A stretch of DNA of 64,000 bases from Patescibacteria group bacterium (lineage in GTDB: Bacteria > Patescibacteriota > Minisyncoccia > Moranbacterales > GWC2-37-73): contig JAKLIP010000001.1 in assembly GCA_022709545.1 (NCBI GenBank), positions 248,001 through 312,000 on the forward strand, read 5' to 3'. Under the pieces are notes generated by a model. The model did no database searches. It had not been told where the DNA came from and was given only the letters and a program-made list of their open reading frames with translations. Shown in pieces: positions 19,923 through 27,984 of this stretch (positions are counted from its first letter, which is position 1; every line of letters begins with the position of its first letter). Position numbers and translations under genes: made by a program.

Positions 19923-21092
19923 ATGATCAATTATTTGAAAAATCCAAGAAAAATTGCTAAGGGAATATCTATACTATTCCTGGTTTTTTTTATTGGCGGA
20001 ATTGGCGGGGTATATTTTGACCAGCATATTCTTCCTTTTATCAGGACAAATAAGTATCTTTCCCGTATAAATTTTTTGAATCGAGCAGCTGAAAATGTGA
20101 CGATTATAAACAATACTCAACAAGTTACCATAAAGGAGGATGATTCTATTAATGAGGTGGCATCTTTAGCATCAAACGCAGTTGTAAATATTGTTTCAAT
20201 AGTAAATCAGAAGGATATTATCACAAGAGAGAATAAGATAGAGAATCGGAGCGGAACAGGTGTAATAGTAACAAGCGACGGATTAATCGTCACTTATCGC
20301 ACATCAATAATTGAAAAAGATGCAAATTACAAAGTTTTTCTTTTTAATGGCAGCCATTATGATGCAAAATTTATAGGCATCGATGAGTTTACAGACTTAG
20401 CCTTCCTTAAAATTGATGCCAATAATTTAACCACAGTTTCATTGGCCGATTCATCCAGCTTACGTCCAGGTAAAAAATTGATAGCTATAGGAAATTCATT
20501 CGGTGAATACCAAAACCGATATGAGGCAGGACTTTTAAGCCATATTAATAAAAACTTTAATTTAGGAGGCAAGGCAGTTGCAGTTTCTGAAAAATTAGAA
20601 GGCGTATTTGAAGATGATTTGAAAAATCAAAAAGAATATATAGGAGGGCCAGTTGTTGGATACAGCAGAGATATGATAGGAATTATCGGCATGATTAATA
20701 TAAATGGCCAGGATAAATATTTTCAAATCCCTTCCAATGCTGTCAGAAATTCAATAAGCCTGGCTGTAAATAATGAATTGAATTATCGTCCATTTTTTGG
20801 GGCATATTATATATCCATAACCAAAGAATTTTCCATAACAAACAAATTAAATCGTGATCGAGGGGCTTTGATTTATTCACCCTCTGGCAAACAAGGATTG
20901 GCAATAATTTCAGGATCACCGGCTGAATTGGCGGGAATTAAAATAAATGACATCATTATTTCAGTCAATGGAGAAGAAGTTAATCTGGATAATCCTCTTT
21001 CAAATTTAATCAATAAAAACAAAAAGGGCAGCCGGGTTGAATTTGTTATTGATAGAAACGGACAAGAGATCAATATAACTGCTCAATTATAA
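19923..21092 (+). CDS. HtrA-like PDZ protein lacking catalytic His and Ser (pseudoprotease)
   Basis: 389 aa. One N-terminal membrane anchor (about 13-30), trypsin-like S1C core (80-290) and one PDZ domain (about 295-389; SGSPAELAGIKINDIIISVNG). The fold marks are intact: SGTGVIVTSDGLIVT, FTDLAFLKI with Asp158, and GGP. The catalytic His position in the usual TNNHV is Thr127 (LIVTYRTSI), and the Ser position in the usual GNSGGP is Ile240 (EYIGGPVVG). So I infer no peptidase activity, and a scaffold or chaperone role outside the membrane. It sits directly upstream of the surface-protein and sortase cluster. TATAAT copies lie at 19891-19896 and 19901-19906. Confidence 0.85.
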   Translation: MINYLKNPRKIAKGISILFLVFFIGGIGGVYFDQHILPFIRTNKYLSRINFLNRAAENVTIINNTQQVTIKEDDSINEVASLASNAVVNIVSIVNQKDIITRENKIENRSGTGVIVTSDGLIVTYRTSIIEKDANYKVFLFNGSHYDAKFIGIDEFTDLAFLKIDANNLTTVSLADSSSLRPGKKLIAIGNSFGEYQNRYEAGLLSHINKNFNLGGKAVAVSEKLEGVFEDDLKNQKEYIGGPVVGYSRDMIGIIGMININGQDKYFQIPSNAVRNSISLAVNNELNYRPFFGAYYISITKEFSITNKLNRDRGALIYSPSGKQGLAIISGSPAELAGIKINDIIISVNGEEVNLDNPLSNLINKNKKGSRVEFVIDRNGQEINITAQL

Positions 21093-21187: not shown

Positions 21188-21216
21188 TTGACAAAAACAG
21201 GCCTTTATGATAGCCT
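21188..21216 (+). promoter_or_regulatory. Strong sigma-70-type promoter of the first surface protein
   Basis: TTGACA (21188-21193), 17-nt spacer ending TGA, TAGCCT (21211-21216). Leader of about 35 nt. Same layout as the promoters at 22415, 23338 and 24501. Confidence 0.75.
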
Positions 21217-21257
21217 ATTCAATCCTAATAAGGTAACTAAATTCATTTATTAAACAT

Positions 21258-21995
21258 ATGAAAAATAAGAAAAATGTAATTTATATCGCATGTATAGCTT
21301 TTTTAGCCGTTGCCTTGTTTTGCACTGCAGATATTGTATTTGCAGATACGCATATACATATAGACAATGAAAATGAATCAGAATCAACAGGGGGAAGCGC
21401 CAGTGCAACAGGGGGAAGCGCCAGTGCTTCTATTGGCAATATTACCAACAGCAATAGTAACAGTGTAAGTAACTCCAGTTCAATCACAAACAGGAATGTT
21501 AATATCAATTCCAACACTAATTATAATTCCAATACAAATTATAACTCCAATAATAATTCCAATGATGACTCAGATAACAGCAACAGCACATGTTCTAATT
21601 GCAGCAGAAGCACCTCATATAGCAATAGTACTAGCATAAATTCTTCAAGTTCAAGTGTAAATTCTAGTTCTTCAACTTCGAGCTCAAGCACAAGCCAGGT
21701 TTCCGGTGTTTCAAGCACTTCTACAGGCGGAACCTCAACTACAACAGGCGGAACTTCCTATACTGATCAAGATTCAGATGTCCACATAGACATAGATAGT
21801 GATGGACGTGAGCATCATTATACTATTGACAGGGACGGGCACAGACACTATTTCACATTTGATAGGGACGGGCACAGACACTATTGGAAAGTGCCTGCAA
21901 CTGGAAGCAATGCTTTTGCTTTATCAGTAATTTCAATCATGTCTCTGTTGACTATTATAACCGGAATAAAAAAATATTTACCCATTAGTTGCTAA
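21258..21995 (+). CDS. Secreted Ser/Asn-rich surface protein with PxTG-type sorting signal (paralogue 1)
   Basis: 245 aa. Signal peptide (1-30, ending VFADT). Then the family module: acidic strand HIHIDNENESES, two TGGSASA repeats, and SIGNITNSNSNSV leading into Asn/Ser-rich sequence (about 60-120). A Ser-rich stalk follows, then GVSSTSTGGTSTTTGGTS, an acidic strand DVHIDIDSD, and three His/Asp-rich repeats (DRDGHRHY type, about 180-215) that could bind metal. C terminus: VPATG, hydrophobic helix, KK, matching a sortase sorting signal with PxTG. I infer an extended, cell-wall-anchored surface protein, perhaps an adhesin. Two paralogues follow, with a sortase between. Its own strong promoter is at 21188. 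Confidence 0.75.
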   Translation: MKNKKNVIYIACIAFLAVALFCTADIVFADTHIHIDNENESESTGGSASATGGSASASIGNITNSNSNSVSNSSSITNRNVNINSNTNYNSNTNYNSNNNSNDDSDNSNSTCSNCSRSTSYSNSTSINSSSSSVNSSSSTSSSSTSQVSGVSSTSTGGTSTTTGGTSYTDQDSDVHIDIDSDGREHHYTIDRDGHRHYFTFDRDGHRHYWKVPATGSNAFALSVISIMSLLTIITGIKKYLPISC

Positions 21996-22018
21996 ATATT
22001 TTTTAAGCCCATGGTGAT

Positions 22019-22303
22019 ATGGAAACTCAAAATAATGTCATAATAATGTTGTTCATTGCACTCATCTTGACGGTATTTCCTATAATCCACTCTATTTATG
22101 TGAGTGGAAAAGAAAAGGGAATAAGAGATGAGCATGAAAGGGCAATTTTGGCAGTAAATAATCTTTTGGAGGTTATGGAGGAGGCTCAAAAAAATGCAGG
22201 GGTTTCTGAAAGGAAAATAGAAAAAATTAAAAGGTATTTGGCAGACCGAACAATGGAAAAGTTATATTCCGCAACCAATGCAAGCAAGAAAATACTAAAC
22301 TAA
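22019..22303 (+). CDS. Small membrane protein with cytoplasmic coiled coil
   Basis: 94 aa. N-terminal helix (NVIIMLFIALILTVFPIIHSIYV, about 6-28) then a charged alpha-helical part rich in Glu and Lys (HERAILAVNNLLEVMEEAQK). It follows paralogue 1 by 23 nt with no promoter between, and a strong terminator comes after it, so the two form one transcript. No family recognised. Position suggests an accessory to the surface protein or sortase, but that is inference. Confidence 0.7.
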   Translation: METQNNVIIMLFIALILTVFPIIHSIYVSGKEKGIRDEHERAILAVNNLLEVMEEAQKNAGVSERKIEKIKRYLADRTMEKLYSATNASKKILN

Positions 22304-22318
22304 AATAAAATTCAGCGA

Positions 22319-22352
22319 AGACCCAATTTCCATAAGGATATTGGGTCTTTTT
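22319..22352 (+). terminator. Rho-independent terminator
   Basis: AGACCCAAT (22319-22327) pairs with ATTGGGTCT (22340-22348), followed by T's. It closes the 21258-22303 unit. Confidence 0.85.
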
Positions 22353-22379
22353 GCTTCTAATAAAAACCGTATTCTTTTA

Positions 22380-22403
22380 TTTTGGCTTTAAATAAAGCCA
22401 AAA
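22380..22403 (+). promoter_or_regulatory. Inverted repeat upstream of the sortase promoter (possible operator)
   Basis: TTTTGGCTTTA / TAAAGCCAAAA: perfect 11-bp arms with a 2-nt centre, ending 11 nt before the -35. It contains AGCCA/TGGCT motifs, and a third TGGCT follows at 22404-22408. Read on the minus strand it could also act as a terminator-like stem. Confidence 0.5.
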
Positions 22404-22414
22404 TGGCTAAATAC

Positions 22415-22443
22415 TTGACAAAATATTGATTTTCTGCTAGACT
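22415..22443 (+). promoter_or_regulatory. Strong promoter of the sortase gene
   Basis: TTGACA (22415-22420), 17-nt spacer ending TGC, TAGACT (22438-22443). Confidence 0.8.
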
Positions 22444-22480
22444 ATGCAGTTATCATTTAATATCCAATAATCTAAAAACA

Positions 22481-23332
22481 ATGTCTGAAAAAATTAAAAA
22501 ATATTTAAAAAAGTTTCTATTGTCAGTGATTCTTTTTCTGGTTATTTTTATTGTTCTGTTTTATATCCTAAACCTTGATTTTAGCCCGAATAAAAATTCA
22601 ATCGTAACTGATGGTGAAAAAGAAGCTACCAGTGTGGCCAAAAATAATGACATAAGCACCCGCTTGGGCAGTACAACTTTTTCGATTGAAACATACAGTG
22701 AATGGAAAAACCGCAATGGACTAAACGATTCTAATAGCGGACTGGATGATGATCCTGACAAAGACAAACTTCCAAACTACTTGGAATACGTCCACGGTAC
22801 AAATCCTCTTAACTCTGATACTGATGGAGATGCATATTCTGATAAGCAGGAAATAATAAACGGATATGATCCGGATGCGCCGGGAGAAGCAAAACCATTT
22901 GTTGAAATAAAAATTTCTAAGATAAATATTGCTGCTCCAGTAGTCTGGTCAAAAAGCGATAAGGAAGATGACATGTTGAAAGACCTTGAAAACGGAATAA
23001 ACCATTATCCGAAAACTGCTTCTTTCGGACAAAATGGAAATTCAGTTGTCTCCGGCCATTCAAGTAATTATTTATGGGCAAAAGGCGACTACAATCATAT
23101 CTTTAAAAATTTAAATGATTTGGAAATAGGGGATATTATAGTTGCTAAAACCATCCAGGCAAATGGAAGAGTTATTATCTACCAATACAGAGTGTCTGAT
23201 AAATTTATCACTTCTCCAGATGATGAAAGAATATTTGCTCCGGCAAATGGTCCGGTCCTAACCTTGTCGACCTGCTGGCCGATTGGAACAACCTATAATA
23301 GGCTGATTATCAAGACAGAATTGGTGAAATAA
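22481..23332 (+). CDS. Sortase with thrombospondin type 3-like calcium repeats
   Basis: 283 aa. N-terminal membrane anchor (about 10-32). Residues about 85-135 hold Asp-rich TSP3-like repeats (SGLDDDPDKDKLPNYLEYVHGT and NPLNSDTDGDAYSDKQEI), probable Ca2+ loops. The sortase barrel follows (about 140-283) with catalytic His193 in SGHSS, Cys265 in TLSTCWP and Arg274 in YNRLIIK. Sortases cut a sorting signal and link the protein to a wall or pilin nucleophile. The paralogues on either side end in PATG or PNTG signals and are the obvious substrates. It looks closest to class D/E or the short CPR-type sortases, but class assignment needs alignment. Own promoter at 22415. Confidence 0.88.
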   Translation: MSEKIKKYLKKFLLSVILFLVIFIVLFYILNLDFSPNKNSIVTDGEKEATSVAKNNDISTRLGSTTFSIETYSEWKNRNGLNDSNSGLDDDPDKDKLPNYLEYVHGTNPLNSDTDGDAYSDKQEIINGYDPDAPGEAKPFVEIKISKINIAAPVVWSKSDKEDDMLKDLENGINHYPKTASFGQNGNSVVSGHSSNYLWAKGDYNHIFKNLNDLEIGDIIVAKTIQANGRVIIYQYRVSDKFITSPDDERIFAPANGPVLTLSTCWPIGTTYNRLIIKTELVK

Positions 23333-23337
23333 TAGAT

Positions 23338-23366
23338 TTGACAAAATTAATATATTATGATAATAT
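23338..23366 (+). promoter_or_regulatory. Strong promoter of surface-protein paralogue 2
   Basis: TTGACA (23338-23343), 17-nt spacer ending TGA, TAATAT (23361-23366). It begins 6 nt after the sortase stop codon. The leader (about 90 nt) holds a nested stem: CGCAA...TTGCG enclosing AGGA...TCCT at about 23411-23439. Confidence 0.75.
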
Positions 23367-23460
23367 CTAATGTTTTAGAATTTAATAATTAATTTATTTT
23401 TAATTTAAGGCGCAAAATAGGAATAATCCTTGCCTTGCGTGGCTCTAAAAGGCCAAATAT

Positions 23461-24387
23461 ATGACAAAGAAGAATATAATTTTTATCGTAGTATCAGCGG
23501 TTATATCTGCAGTCGTTTTCTATGCTGCCAACAATATGGCGTTTGCAGACATTAAAATAAACATAGATAACGAAAATGAATCGGAATCAACTGGCGGAAG
23601 TGCCACTGCCACTGGCGGAAGTGCCACTGCATCTGTTGGTGATATCACTAACAGCAATAGCAACACTGTAAACAATTCCAATTCAATCAGTAATAGAAAC
23701 ACTAACATAAGTTCAAACACGAATTACAATTCAAACACGAACAGTAATTCAAACACGAACAACAATGATAGTGATTCCTCAGCTTATTGCCACCGTTCAG
23801 GCGAGGGTTGCCATGATCATGATAATTATGACAACCATGGATCCGATCATAGCTATGACAATAGTGGAAACTCTAGCTATAGTGACAGCACTTCATACAG
23901 CGACAATTTCAGCATGAATTCTTCAACTTCAACTGTAAATTCTGCTTCTACGATTTCAAGCACAAGCACAACCAGTGTTTCCGGAGTTACAAGCACTGCC
24001 ACAGGTGGAACTTCAACCACAACAGGTGGAACTTCAACCACTGGAACTGATACTGAGATTGATGTAGACATAGATGATCCGGGTCATGATGGCCATGATG
24101 GGGAGGACGGCGAAGATGGTCACGACGGACATGATGGAACAGACGGTCATGACGGACATGATGGAACAGATGGCCGCGATGGTCATGATGGAAAAATAAC
24201 ATATGTATATAAATACAAATATATATATGATGAGAATCACAATGTAATCGGAAAAACAAGGGTTATCGTTGGTGAAAAAAAAGCACCTAACACGGGAACT
24301 GGTACCAATGTTTTAGCCGGACTTGCAGTTATATCTCTAGCAGCCACTTCATTTGGTGTAAAAAAATATTTAATTAATTTCATTTAA
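23461..24387 (+). CDS. Secreted Ser/Asn-rich surface protein with collagen-like segment and PxTG signal (paralogue 2)
   Basis: 308 aa. Signal peptide (1-30, AFAD). The family module follows (KINIDNENESES, two TGGSATA repeats, SVGDITNSNSN), then Asn/Ser-rich sequence, a His/Asp-rich patch (about 115-140) and a Ser/Thr stalk. GVTSTATGGTSTTTGGTS and an acidic strand EIDVDIDD come next. Then 13 Gly-x-y triplets, nearly all GxD (GHD, GED, GTD, GRD; about 215-255), like a short Asp-rich bacterial collagen segment. The C terminus has APNTG, a hydrophobic helix and KK, a sortase signal. Over its first 100 residues it is near-identical in plan to paralogue 1. Inferred wall-anchored filament or adhesin. 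Confidence 0.77.
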   Translation: MTKKNIIFIVVSAVISAVVFYAANNMAFADIKINIDNENESESTGGSATATGGSATASVGDITNSNSNTVNNSNSISNRNTNISSNTNYNSNTNSNSNTNNNDSDSSAYCHRSGEGCHDHDNYDNHGSDHSYDNSGNSSYSDSTSYSDNFSMNSSTSTVNSASTISSTSTTSVSGVTSTATGGTSTTTGGTSTTGTDTEIDVDIDDPGHDGHDGEDGEDGHDGHDGTDGHDGHDGTDGRDGHDGKITYVYKYKYIYDENHNVIGKTRVIVGEKKAPNTGTGTNVLAGLAVISLAATSFGVKKYLINFI

Positions 24388-24500: not shown

Positions 24501-24529
24501 TTGACAAAAGCCTAATTATATGATAGACT
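24501..24529 (+). promoter_or_regulatory. Strong promoter of the GC-rich cassette
   Basis: TTGACA (24501-24506), 17-nt spacer ending TGA, TAGACT (24524-24529). Confidence 0.8.
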
Positions 24530-24730: not shown

Positions 24731-26104
24731 ATGAAGAAAAAAGCTCTGGCCATTTTGGCCGCGGTGATTATGGTACTGTCTGCGAACTTCGCGTTCGCAG
24801 ATGACATCGAAATTGAACTCGAGAATGACAATCGCGCCACCGCTACCGGCGGTGATGCCAGTGCTACTGGCGGCGACGCCAGTGCGAATGTGGGGGATAT
24901 TAGCAATAACAACGCTAATAACCTCAATAACCAAAATAATATCAACAACAGGAACGACAACCTGAACATGAACAGGAACGACAACCTGAACATGAACAGG
25001 AACGACAACCTGAACATGAACAGGAACGACAGCAGAGCTAACAGTAGCTCTATGTTGATTAATAACGAGGCGCCGAATCACATAGTTGCCCCGTTACTGA
25101 GTGCCTTCGTGGGCGCTCCGACGTCCGAAGTGCCCAAGGGTTGGAAAGGCGTTGTCTGTGATCCAGACTATAGCCAATTCACCTACGGTGAGCTGAAAAC
25201 CATGGCCGATTCAGGTCGGCTAATGGATGGTCGCGGGAGTATATGGAATGCGATGACTTCTCAAAAAGTTAAAGGTTCGGTACGTAGCCGAATCAATAAT
25301 CGCATTGATGATAACACTATCATTAAAGTTATAAATGTAGCCCCTAACGCTTCAGTTAGGAGACTGGGTGTTTACCAAGGCGTTGGCGACTGGAACTGGC
25401 CAGTAGATGAAGTATTGGCTAAGACGGTTTTACAGGCCGTCGAAGAAACCGGTTCCACTAACGTAGCAATTTACTGGGACTCTGTGGTTGACAGGCATAA
25501 TTCCGGTTCCAGTTTAGGAATCGGTTTCACTGGCTCCGGCGTGGACGGAAAAGGTGCTGGGTCAGGCTCTTTAGGAGCCGTTACCGGCAATGCCTTTTCC
25601 CTTACAGAAGTGGCATACCAAGTTAAGGTGGTAGCGTATGCGAATGTCGGGTACCAACCTGATGTTTGTACGCCCCCTCCGCCTCCGGCGCCGAAACCTG
25701 AGCCTAAGGTCGTTCCTCCTCCGGCAGCTCCGGCACCGCAAGTGAAAGCTTGCGATCCGAGCAGTATTTTTACTCGGATTGAAGAGTTGAAACAGCGTAT
25801 CAAAGAGTGCACCAGATGGTGCTTAAATAACCTCCAGTTGCGCTCCAAGTTGGCAGAAGCGTATGTTGACCTGTACCAGTGTACAGGAGATAAACGATAT
25901 CTCAACTCGGCGATCGAACAGTTTAAGATCGCGGAACGCAATTACTTCCGTGGGCATGATATTCGTGCCAATCAAGCGGAAGCGGATCGGCTGATTGCCC
26001 AAGATTATTTCTTATGGGCAGGTTGCATTGATGTTCTTTATGGACCGGATGCGGCCGACCGGTTTGCGAAGGAGAAGCGGGTTGAGAAAGTCCCGCAACT
26101 GTAA
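24731..26104 (+). CDS. Large secreted protein sharing the TGG/Asn module (paralogue 3), GC-rich
   Basis: 457 aa. Signal peptide (1-23, AFAD). Then the family module with Asp in place of Ser: IEIELENDNRATATGGDAS followed by a second ATGGDAS copy and NVGDISNNNANN. Three exact 24-nt direct repeats encode NRNDNLNM (24952-25023). A globular domain follows (about 125-310; SEVPKGWKGVVCDPDYSQF, QGVGDWNWPVDEVLAKT), then a Pro-rich linker (PPPPPAPKPEPKVVPPP) and a Cys-containing helical domain (about 345-457; TPR-like AYVDLYQCTGDKRYLNSAIEQF). There is no PxTG signal. The gene is far more GC-rich than its neighbours and has a perfect SD, so transfer or a very different expression level is likely. Function unknown. 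Confidence 0.77.
   Translation: MKKKALAILAAVIMVLSANFAFADDIEIELENDNRATATGGDASATGGDASANVGDISNNNANNLNNQNNINNRNDNLNMNRNDNLNMNRNDNLNMNRNDSRANSSSMLINNEAPNHIVAPLLSAFVGAPTSEVPKGWKGVVCDPDYSQFTYGELKTMADSGRLMDGRGSIWNAMTSQKVKGSVRSRINNRIDDNTIIKVINVAPNASVRRLGVYQGVGDWNWPVDEVLAKTVLQAVEETGSTNVAIYWDSVVDRHNSGSSLGIGFTGSGVDGKGAGSGSLGAVTGNAFSLTEVAYQVKVVAYANVGYQPDVCTPPPPPAPKPEPKVVPPPAAPAPQVKACDPSSIFTRIEELKQRIKECTRWCLNNLQLRSKLAEAYVDLYQCTGDKRYLNSAIEQFKIAERNYFRGHDIRANQAEADRLIAQDYFLWAGCIDVLYGPDAADRFAKEKRVEKVPQL
24952..25028 (+). repeat. In-frame 24-nt tandem repeat
   Basis: A unit beginning AACAGGAACGACAACCTGAA and ending CATG is repeated in tandem three times, with a partial further copy, encoding an 8-residue Asn-rich repeat. 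Copy number may vary between strains. Confidence 0.8.
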
Positions 26105-26166: not shown

Positions 26167-26658
26167 ATGAAAAAGACTTTTCTGGCCTTAGTGGCCATTG
26201 CAGTTGTAGTGGGGTTTGTTCCTATGGGACAAGCCGTAACGATTAACGGAGAGCGCCAGGTGATAGCAGGTCCGCAATATGAAGCTCCTCCGCCTCCAGA
26301 GGCCGAGGTTTCGCCTGCTGACTTCAGAAAGCTGAAAACTGAAGTCACTAATCTTAAAAAGTCGACAAATAGTCAATTCGCCAGAATAAATGGGGAGTTG
26401 GAAGCGCAAAAAGAAGTTTCCAACGATATCGAGGCGAAAGTCGACGGCCAGCTAAAGGATCTGTCGGTTAAAATAGACAGACATGAGGGTTGGTTATCCA
26501 ACCTGACTGGCGCGTACAACACGACTGCCGGAACTGTAATAAAGCAGGGCCGGTCGATAAATAAGATAGCGGGGAAATTAGTAGATTTATTCTACTTCGT
26601 CCTTGCTATGATTGGCGCTTTTATTATAATTGCGTTCTTCATAGGAAGACGGAAATAA
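26167..26658 (+). CDS. Secreted coiled-coil protein with C-terminal membrane anchor
   Basis: 163 aa. Signal peptide (1-23, ending GQA). A short Pro-rich part (APPPPEAEV) is followed by a long coiled coil (about 48-125; DFRKLKTEVTNLKKSTNSQ, EVSNDIEAKVDGQLKDLSV). A C-terminal transmembrane helix (FYFVLAMIGAFIIIAFFIG) and GRRK stop-transfer end it. It would stand as a stalk on the outer face of the membrane. SD AGAGGAGG lies 6-8 nt before the ATG. It shares high GC and strong SD with the gene before it and likely forms a two-gene unit. No family recognised; an anchor or receptor for paralogue 3 is a plausible guess. Confidence 0.72.
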   Translation: MKKTFLALVAIAVVVGFVPMGQAVTINGERQVIAGPQYEAPPPPEAEVSPADFRKLKTEVTNLKKSTNSQFARINGELEAQKEVSNDIEAKVDGQLKDLSVKIDRHEGWLSNLTGAYNTTAGTVIKQGRSINKIAGKLVDLFYFVLAMIGAFIIIAFFIGRRK

Positions 26659-26931: not shown

Positions 26932-27984
26932 ATGGAAAAAATCAATCAATATTGGCAAAAGATCAGCGTGGATTCGGAATATTTTTCTCTGAGATTTTTT
27001 GTTGCAGGCATAGTGCTTTCATTTTCATTTTTATTGCTGTTCATCAGCCTGTCCAAAACCTACACTTCCAGTGTTATAATTTTAGTAAATGCAAAATCGG
27101 AAACTGCAGCTCAGCAAAAAAACCAGATTATCCGCAATGTTTCCGAATTTCCAAAAACTTTGGCTCTCTACGACCGCTTGCTGAAATACAATTCCGATGT
27201 GAAAGATTTTGCCGCCGGAAAATCATCGGCAGAAAGAAAAGACTATTGGAATGGACTGGTTTCAACCAAAAAAATAGGCAGAGATTCTTCTTTAATAAAA
27301 ATTTCAATCAACACCAAACAAAAAAATGATGCTGAAAAACTGGCAGAAAAAACTACTGAAACTCTTTTCTATTTCACCGCTTTCTATTATGACATCAAGA
27401 AGGATGTTGATTTGCTCACAGTTGAAGGACCGATCACGCATCCCCGCATTGCCGGAATTTTAAGTGTGATTCCGCTAAGCTTAATTCTCGGATTTCTGTT
27501 AGCTTTTATTTTCCAATATACACTAATAAAAAGAAAGGACTTATTGATAGAAAACTACAAGGAATCTAAGGAAAAGTTTTTATTTGATTTACAAAATAAG
27601 TCCGGAGAAAAAAAATCTGAAAAAGATGAATTGAAATCTCTTGAAAATTTATACATGTCTGATATTCCTGCCGAGATAAAGCTCGCTCCTAAAGAAGAGC
27701 TGGGAAATATATTTACCCGTAAATTCCAGGAGATGAAAAAGCTGACAAAGATTCTTGAAAAAAATACCAAATATCCTAATTTTGCAGAAGTCCCTAAATA
27801 TAATGGGGGTAAAGGAGATGCACCTGACAATCTTCCTGTCGCTGACGATTTTTCATTAAATAAGACCATGGAAGAACCTAATCAGGAAAAAACTGAAGAA
27901 AAAAAGATAAATAAGACATATCCTGAACCCGACATGGAGAAGCTAAAGAAAAGACTAAATGCCTTACTGAAAGGTGAATTATAA
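26932..27984 (+). CDS. Wzz-like chain-length determinant / polysaccharide co-polymerase
   Basis: 350 aa. Two membrane helices: about 21-42 (FFVAGIVLSFSFLLLFISL) and about 175-198 (IAGILSVIPLSLILGFLLAF), bracketing an outside domain with YTSSVIILVNAKSE just after the first helix. This matches the Wzz/YveK layout. A charged cytoplasmic tail (200-350) without Walker motifs follows, so there is no kinase. These proteins set chain length of exported polysaccharide. It links the surface region to the sugar-nucleotide genes downstream. The start codon follows a structured 150-nt leader. Terminator after. Confidence 0.72.
   Translation: MEKINQYWQKISVDSEYFSLRFFVAGIVLSFSFLLLFISLSKTYTSSVIILVNAKSETAAQQKNQIIRNVSEFPKTLALYDRLLKYNSDVKDFAAGKSSAERKDYWNGLVSTKKIGRDSSLIKISINTKQKNDAEKLAEKTTETLFYFTAFYYDIKKDVDLLTVEGPITHPRIAGILSVIPLSLILGFLLAFIFQYTLIKRKDLLIENYKESKEKFLFDLQNKSGEKKSEKDELKSLENLYMSDIPAEIKLAPKEELGNIFTRKFQEMKKLTKILEKNTKYPNFAEVPKYNGGKGDAPDNLPVADDFSLNKTMEEPNQEKTEEKKINKTYPEPDMEKLKKRLNALLKGEL

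Follow-up and report, generated by a model that had tools for sequence, protein, structure and literature searches.

A sortase linked to a family of low-complexity sorting-signal proteins in Moranbacterales: a candidate surface-anchoring cassette

Introduction

Type IV pili are the usual candidate for the attachment of CPR bacteria to other cells. The window analyzed here, a stretch of 64,000 nucleotides from a 1.02-Mb genome of CPR type, carries a sortase gene lying between genes for two secreted proteins. We ask whether this sortase anchors its neighbors and, if so, what kind of surface structure would result. Named contigs bearing close relatives of the sortase are mostly assigned to Moranbacteria or Moraniibacteriota, and identity and synteny agree on this placement for the window. 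Sortases in CPR genomes are already known (PMC6744442, PMC4736985, PMC7143001). In a literature search mostly without subscription journals and preprints, we found neither a published report of the substrate family or cassette described below nor papers joining Moranbacteria with LPXTG or adhesin.

Gene order at the locus

The genes are arranged on the + strand from a DUF5656 gene (19119) to the rhamnose genes that follow the Wzz-like gene, with these features in between:

19923..21092, +, HtrA-like protein with a PDZ domain, catalytic His and Ser lost
21258..21995, +, substrate 1, 245 aa: signal peptide, acidic strand, two TGG repeats, Asn/Ser-rich body with CSNC, DGH-rich segment, VPATG
22019..22303, +, small single-helix membrane protein
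22415..22443, +, promoter-like site upstream of the sortase, TTGACA-17-TAGACT, consensus match only
22481..23332, +, sortase, 283 aa: N-terminal membrane anchor, TSP3-like segment (about residues 85 to 135), catalytic domain with His193, Cys265, and Arg274
23338..23366, +, promoter-like site upstream of substrate 2, TTGACA-17-TAATAT, consensus match only
23461..24387, +, substrate 2, 308 aa: N-terminal module of substrate 1, collagen-like (G-x-D/H) stretch, APNTG
24501..24529, +, promoter-like site upstream of the third module protein, TTGACA-17-TAGACT, consensus match only
24731..26104, +, third module protein: N-terminal module, alpha/beta middle domain, proline-rich linker, C-terminal TPR; secreted, no sorting signal
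26167..26658, +, coiled-coil/transmembrane protein: signal peptide, coiled coil, C-terminal transmembrane helix; a short version of the gene that follows the third module protein in relatives
26932..27984, +, Wzz-like chain-length protein, starting the polysaccharide block that bounds the cassette

The original prediction, made from the sequence of this region, had two sorting-signal proteins flanking a sortase, and this order stands, with the small membrane protein gene between substrate 1 and the sortase and substrate 2 directly downstream. The cassette is larger than that prediction described, because the third module protein also belongs to the locus. Promoters were proposed at the same time; sites at 22415, 23338, and 24501 match the consensus, whereas the site at 21188 has a TTGACA yet falls below the threshold of the promoter scan. 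The Wzz-like protein, also predicted to lie nearby, is present and matches TIGR01006 with an E value of 6e-5, below the cut-off of that model.

Substrates with common ends and changing bodies

Both window substrates have the C-terminal anatomy that was claimed for them: a PATG or PNTG motif (VPATG in substrate 1, APNTG in substrate 2), a hydrophobic helix, and a lysine pair within a final KKY. Their N termini are 68% identical, in keeping with the common module proposed originally. A Pfam scan of the two proteins returned no family except the collagen repeat in substrate 2 (29.5 bits against a cut-off of 27.2).

From sortase loci we gathered 33 sorting-signal proteins by a criterion of signal peptide, [LVA]Px[TS]G, hydrophobic helix, and basic tail, so that all have the LPxTG-type anatomy of wall-anchored proteins. 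Among the signals of proteins gathered in this way, LPATG occurs 17 times, VPATG, LPASG, and LPSTG four times each, LPVTG twice, and APNTG and LPTTG once each. The architecture runs from the signal peptide, often through an alternating acidic strand and TGG repeats, to the body, an Asp-, His-, or Lys-rich segment, and the [LVA]Px[TS]G signal. The 33 proteins have their ends in common and not their bodies, which are rich in Asn/Ser, Gln/Ser, Ser/Ala, or Thr/Gly or are collagen-like, depending on the species; the sorting signals are kept while the bodies change completely. Three elements recur well above shuffled expectation: the alternating acidic strand (16/33 against 0.8), repeated TGG (22/33 against 4.0), and CxxC (12/33 against 0.9).

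Linkage of the sorting signal to the sortase

Across 131 genomes of the order, a profile of the sorting signal gave 33 strong matches (E<1e-9) in 27 genomes; it was trained on these same proteins, so that the matches are present by construction and only absence elsewhere is independent evidence. Every one of the 33 sits 35 to 1,039 bp from an orthologous short sortase with the TSP3-like segment. The original prediction would be undermined if homologues of the N-terminal module occurred mostly without a sortase; run with the sorting-signal profile, this check had the opposite outcome, and the description of a private substrate family is upheld. The short sortase itself occurs in 29 genomes, 27 of which have a strong match, while in the other two the sortase is cut by a contig end. 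At the 25 loci on named contigs, the gene directly upstream of the sortase bears the sorting signal in all cases, against 3 of 317 other open reading frames there, and these three exceptions are tandem second substrates. The linkage is far beyond chance.

The next, weaker match (E=1e-5; genome G107, locus L224) is a sorting-signal protein directly after HtrA, where the cassette is broken off at the contig end. Within the genome of the window, the profile convincingly matches substrates 1 and 2 and nothing else. Among 384 genomes sampled evenly from the class, only members of the order gave matches, and a wider spread of the substrate family was dropped; whole genomes were scanned by the profile alone, which could miss sorting signals of another type.

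The sortase

The sortase belongs to the Pfam Sortase superfamily (PF04203, 79 bits against a cut-off of 26.6). His193, Cys265, and Arg274, described as intact in the original prediction, are invariant among 33 aligned homologues. Ahead of the catalytic domain, the TSP3-like segment resembles bacterial TSP3 calcium-binding repeats; in the window copy it lies below the Pfam cut-off, and its Asp residues are invariant across the sortase family. A widespread protein of the order, of about 320 to 440 aa, has a TSP3-like segment without a sortase domain (e.g., G000:C10:301179-301424).

By sequence, the nearest class is class D, although every class model scores below its cut-off: 61.9 bits against 165 (NF033746) and 64.4 against 140 (NF058671) for class D, 48.3 against 160 for class E (NF033747), and 43.5 against 160 for the class C pilus sortases (NF033745). 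The AlphaFold2 model is a confident sortase fold (mean pLDDT, 87) in which we see no second transmembrane helix, and structural comparison recovers the sortase fold at a Z of about 18. Matches of classes C, E, A, and D all fall within about 2.5 Z units, too close for a class call from structure, which was dropped.

Longer sortases are found in other families of Moranbacterales and in Doudnabacteria (L088-L110, L148-L177), several of them near large SPxTG/APKTG proteins, apparently a parallel system. A Moranbacterales-type sortase also occurs in a record titled Micavibrio (L154), which is probably mislabelled or a mixed bin.

A third module protein that varies with the substrates

The third module protein was missed by the original prediction. 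Its N-terminal module aligns with both substrates and is 51% identical over that part. Twenty-three genomes have a homologue (E<1e-60), always at the sortase locus, and the gene adjoins the sortase in all strong cases. The third protein is not universal to the cassette, since six genomes of family f11 have the sortase and no third-protein match.

In the AlphaFold2 model the N terminus is disordered, the alpha/beta domain has moderate confidence, and the TPR domain is predicted with confidence. Residues 344 to 448 are helical with pLDDT over 90 and match many TPR chains at Z 10 to 12 over about 95 residues, so that the TPR fold is recovered structurally, with no Pfam TPR match. A Foldseek search with the full model, which effectively covered only the TPR part, gave no significant match; the middle domain spans about residues 140 to 305. 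Neither Pfam nor PHROGs holds a family for the protein, a PDB sequence search with its profile returned chance-level matches only, and no relatives were seen in plasmids, phages, or viral contigs.

The composition of its N-terminal region tracks that of the substrate encoded by the same genome (L1 0.80 against 0.91 by chance; permutation p=5e-5), with a rho of 0.79 for Gln. This covariation is drawn from 22 genomes, and selection acting alike on any secreted low-complexity sequence could explain part of it. The covariation holds when sortase divergence is controlled for (partial Mantel 0.49, p=2e-4). Recent gene conversion is an unlikely cause, because codon identity at identical residues is barely above expectation (277 seen against 256 expected of 709); a recent duplicate pair, as a control, gives 89/89. 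We infer that the covariation reflects selection for matching modules, most simply through association of the two proteins.

The third-protein gene has a GC3 of 0.53 against about 0.30 in its neighbors, and GC3 is clearly higher in 16 of 19 genomes (L061-L086), perhaps owing to high expression or a different origin. In genome G101, a distant homologue and a transmembrane gene follow HtrA, with no sortase or substrate there (L223:8837-10126). The product of 26167..26658 is about half the length of that encoded at the same position in relatives, which adds a C-terminal domain past the transmembrane helix.

Neighboring genes and a variable surface slot

The HtrA-like dead protease lies upstream as originally described, and the His and Ser motifs of the active triad (TNxHV, GNSGG) are absent in 17/17 homologues. 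An active paralogue, which lies nearby in several genomes and served as a control, has both motifs (TNKHVV and GNSGGP). Such a paralogue, with TNKHVV and/or GNSGGP, is found close upstream of ClpC and the dead HtrA at three loci (L069:7744-9060, L122:2332, L136:2282). The tie to the cassette does not hold: most genomes of the order have the dead HtrA gene, whether or not they also have the cassette. Because sister genomes without the sortase also have it, we treat it as a neighbor and not a demonstrated part, and rejected it as a core component. The small membrane protein, likewise predicted and present, was not found at other sortase loci and is probably not a core part either.

Four sister genomes (G010, G004, G009, and G008; L225-L228) lack the short sortase, and in the same slot, bounded by HtrA and the polysaccharide genes, they have other secreted or lipoprotein-like genes. 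Because a different secreted set lies there, the slot looks like a variable surface locus for which the cassette is one option.

A proposed mechanism and its alternatives

Taken as a whole, the locus is best explained as a dedicated sortase cassette that displays single wall-anchored substrate chains, with the third protein associated, as a coat or contact layer; we put the probability of this reading at roughly 75%. Sec would export substrates 1 and 2, whose C-terminal helix would keep them in the membrane. The sortase would then cut VPATG and APNTG between Thr and Gly and join the substrates to a cell-wall precursor; the window encodes MurJ, the lipid II flippase, and PF00953 (MraY/WecA-type) genes are present in the genome. 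That the sortase anchors its two neighboring substrates is very probable. Once anchored, the substrates would stand on the surface of a small cell with one membrane as single chains, hydrophilic and for the most part unfolded. The secreted third protein probably associates with them through the common N-terminal module and would display its TPR domain. Such an arrangement would probably serve as a surface coat or contact layer, and for CPR bacteria a role in contact with other cells is plausible (PMC6744442). The adhesin or host-contact fiber of the original prediction is a candidate role only.

Low-complexity sequence readily yields spurious adhesin matches, and one could suppose that secreted low-complexity proteins simply lie next to a sortase with PxTG-like ends arising by chance. 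We consider this extremely improbable given the 25/25 upstream neighbors and 33/33 strong matches at the sortase, and signals that are retained while bodies change completely. A covalent pilus of the class C type, in which the sortase polymerizes the substrates and the third protein is a tip or minor subunit, would account for a sortase clustered with several secreted proteins and for collagen-like and low-complexity shafts, and in the structural comparison class C sortases tie with others as top matches. However, the sortase is without a second transmembrane helix and scores low with the class C model, and the Pfam scan found no pilin-type domains. The substrate lysine required for isopeptide linkage is also wanting in several substrates: both substrates of genome G005 have zero mature lysines, the only one in mature substrate 1 of the window stands immediately before VPATG, and 9/33 substrates have no lysine outside the last 35 residues, although other substrates do have lysines. 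Because some substrates offer no usable lysine, single wall-anchored chains are likelier than a covalent pilus, which we judge improbable.

The N-terminal modules of the substrates and third protein might instead self-associate into a noncovalent fiber or gel, with the sortase tethering the base only. A calcium role in such a structure is possible because of the acidic strands and the TSP3-like segment. The within-genome covariation, which recent gene conversion does not explain, is consistent with self-association, as are the frequent CxxC motifs and the acidic alternating strands and TGG repeats, which flank the body on both sides. Against it, the N-terminal region is predicted to be disordered in the third protein, and we consider a fiber or gel possible, though somewhat unlikely. 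More speculatively, and in our view rather doubtful, anchored and free proteins could form a two-component surface layer in which their mutual recognition relies on interchangeable low-complexity modules whose compositions co-evolve in every species. If so, the surface material would be particular to each Moranbacteria species and the anchoring machine would be constant.

Comparison with known systems

The best PDB sequence match of the window sortase is 4d70, the class D enzyme Bacillus anthracis SrtC (E=3e-16), and it resembles class D sortases (SrtD) in its N-terminal anchor and in its best NCBIfam class score (64 bits). Class D enzymes anchor single proteins in B. anthracis (PMC3208642). 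Unlike these, the window sortase lies far below the class D cut-offs and has its anchor and catalytic domain separated by a TSP3-like segment, and the cassette substrates end in [LVA]Px[TS]G instead of LPxTA. A sortase family, fam000526, to which the window sortase may belong, has been reported from over half of CPR genomes, and CPR-enriched families have been argued to serve cell-cell contact or interaction (PMC6744442). In the passage concerned, fam000526 is described without substrates, third protein, or cassette.

The substrates recall MSCRAMM/Sdr adhesins in having low-complexity repeats ahead of the sorting signal, but only the repeats are matched (14 bits against 1,700) and the substrates have no N-terminal adhesive domains. 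Streptococcal Scl1 and Scl2 are likewise LPxTG anchored with a collagen-like stretch; substrate 2 matches them weakly (22 and 20 bits), far below the cut-offs (325 and 400), and its collagen stretch has several interchangeable counterparts among the bodies of the cassette. An Sdr or Scl identity was rejected, the matches being to composition only. The cassette presents a case of bodies drifting among markedly different low-complexity compositions, with conservation of the ends, the anchoring enzyme, and the partner protein. It supplies an enzyme-substrate pair that can be tested with short peptides, and it offers a second, gene-defined candidate for cell attachment by CPR bacteria, in one order.
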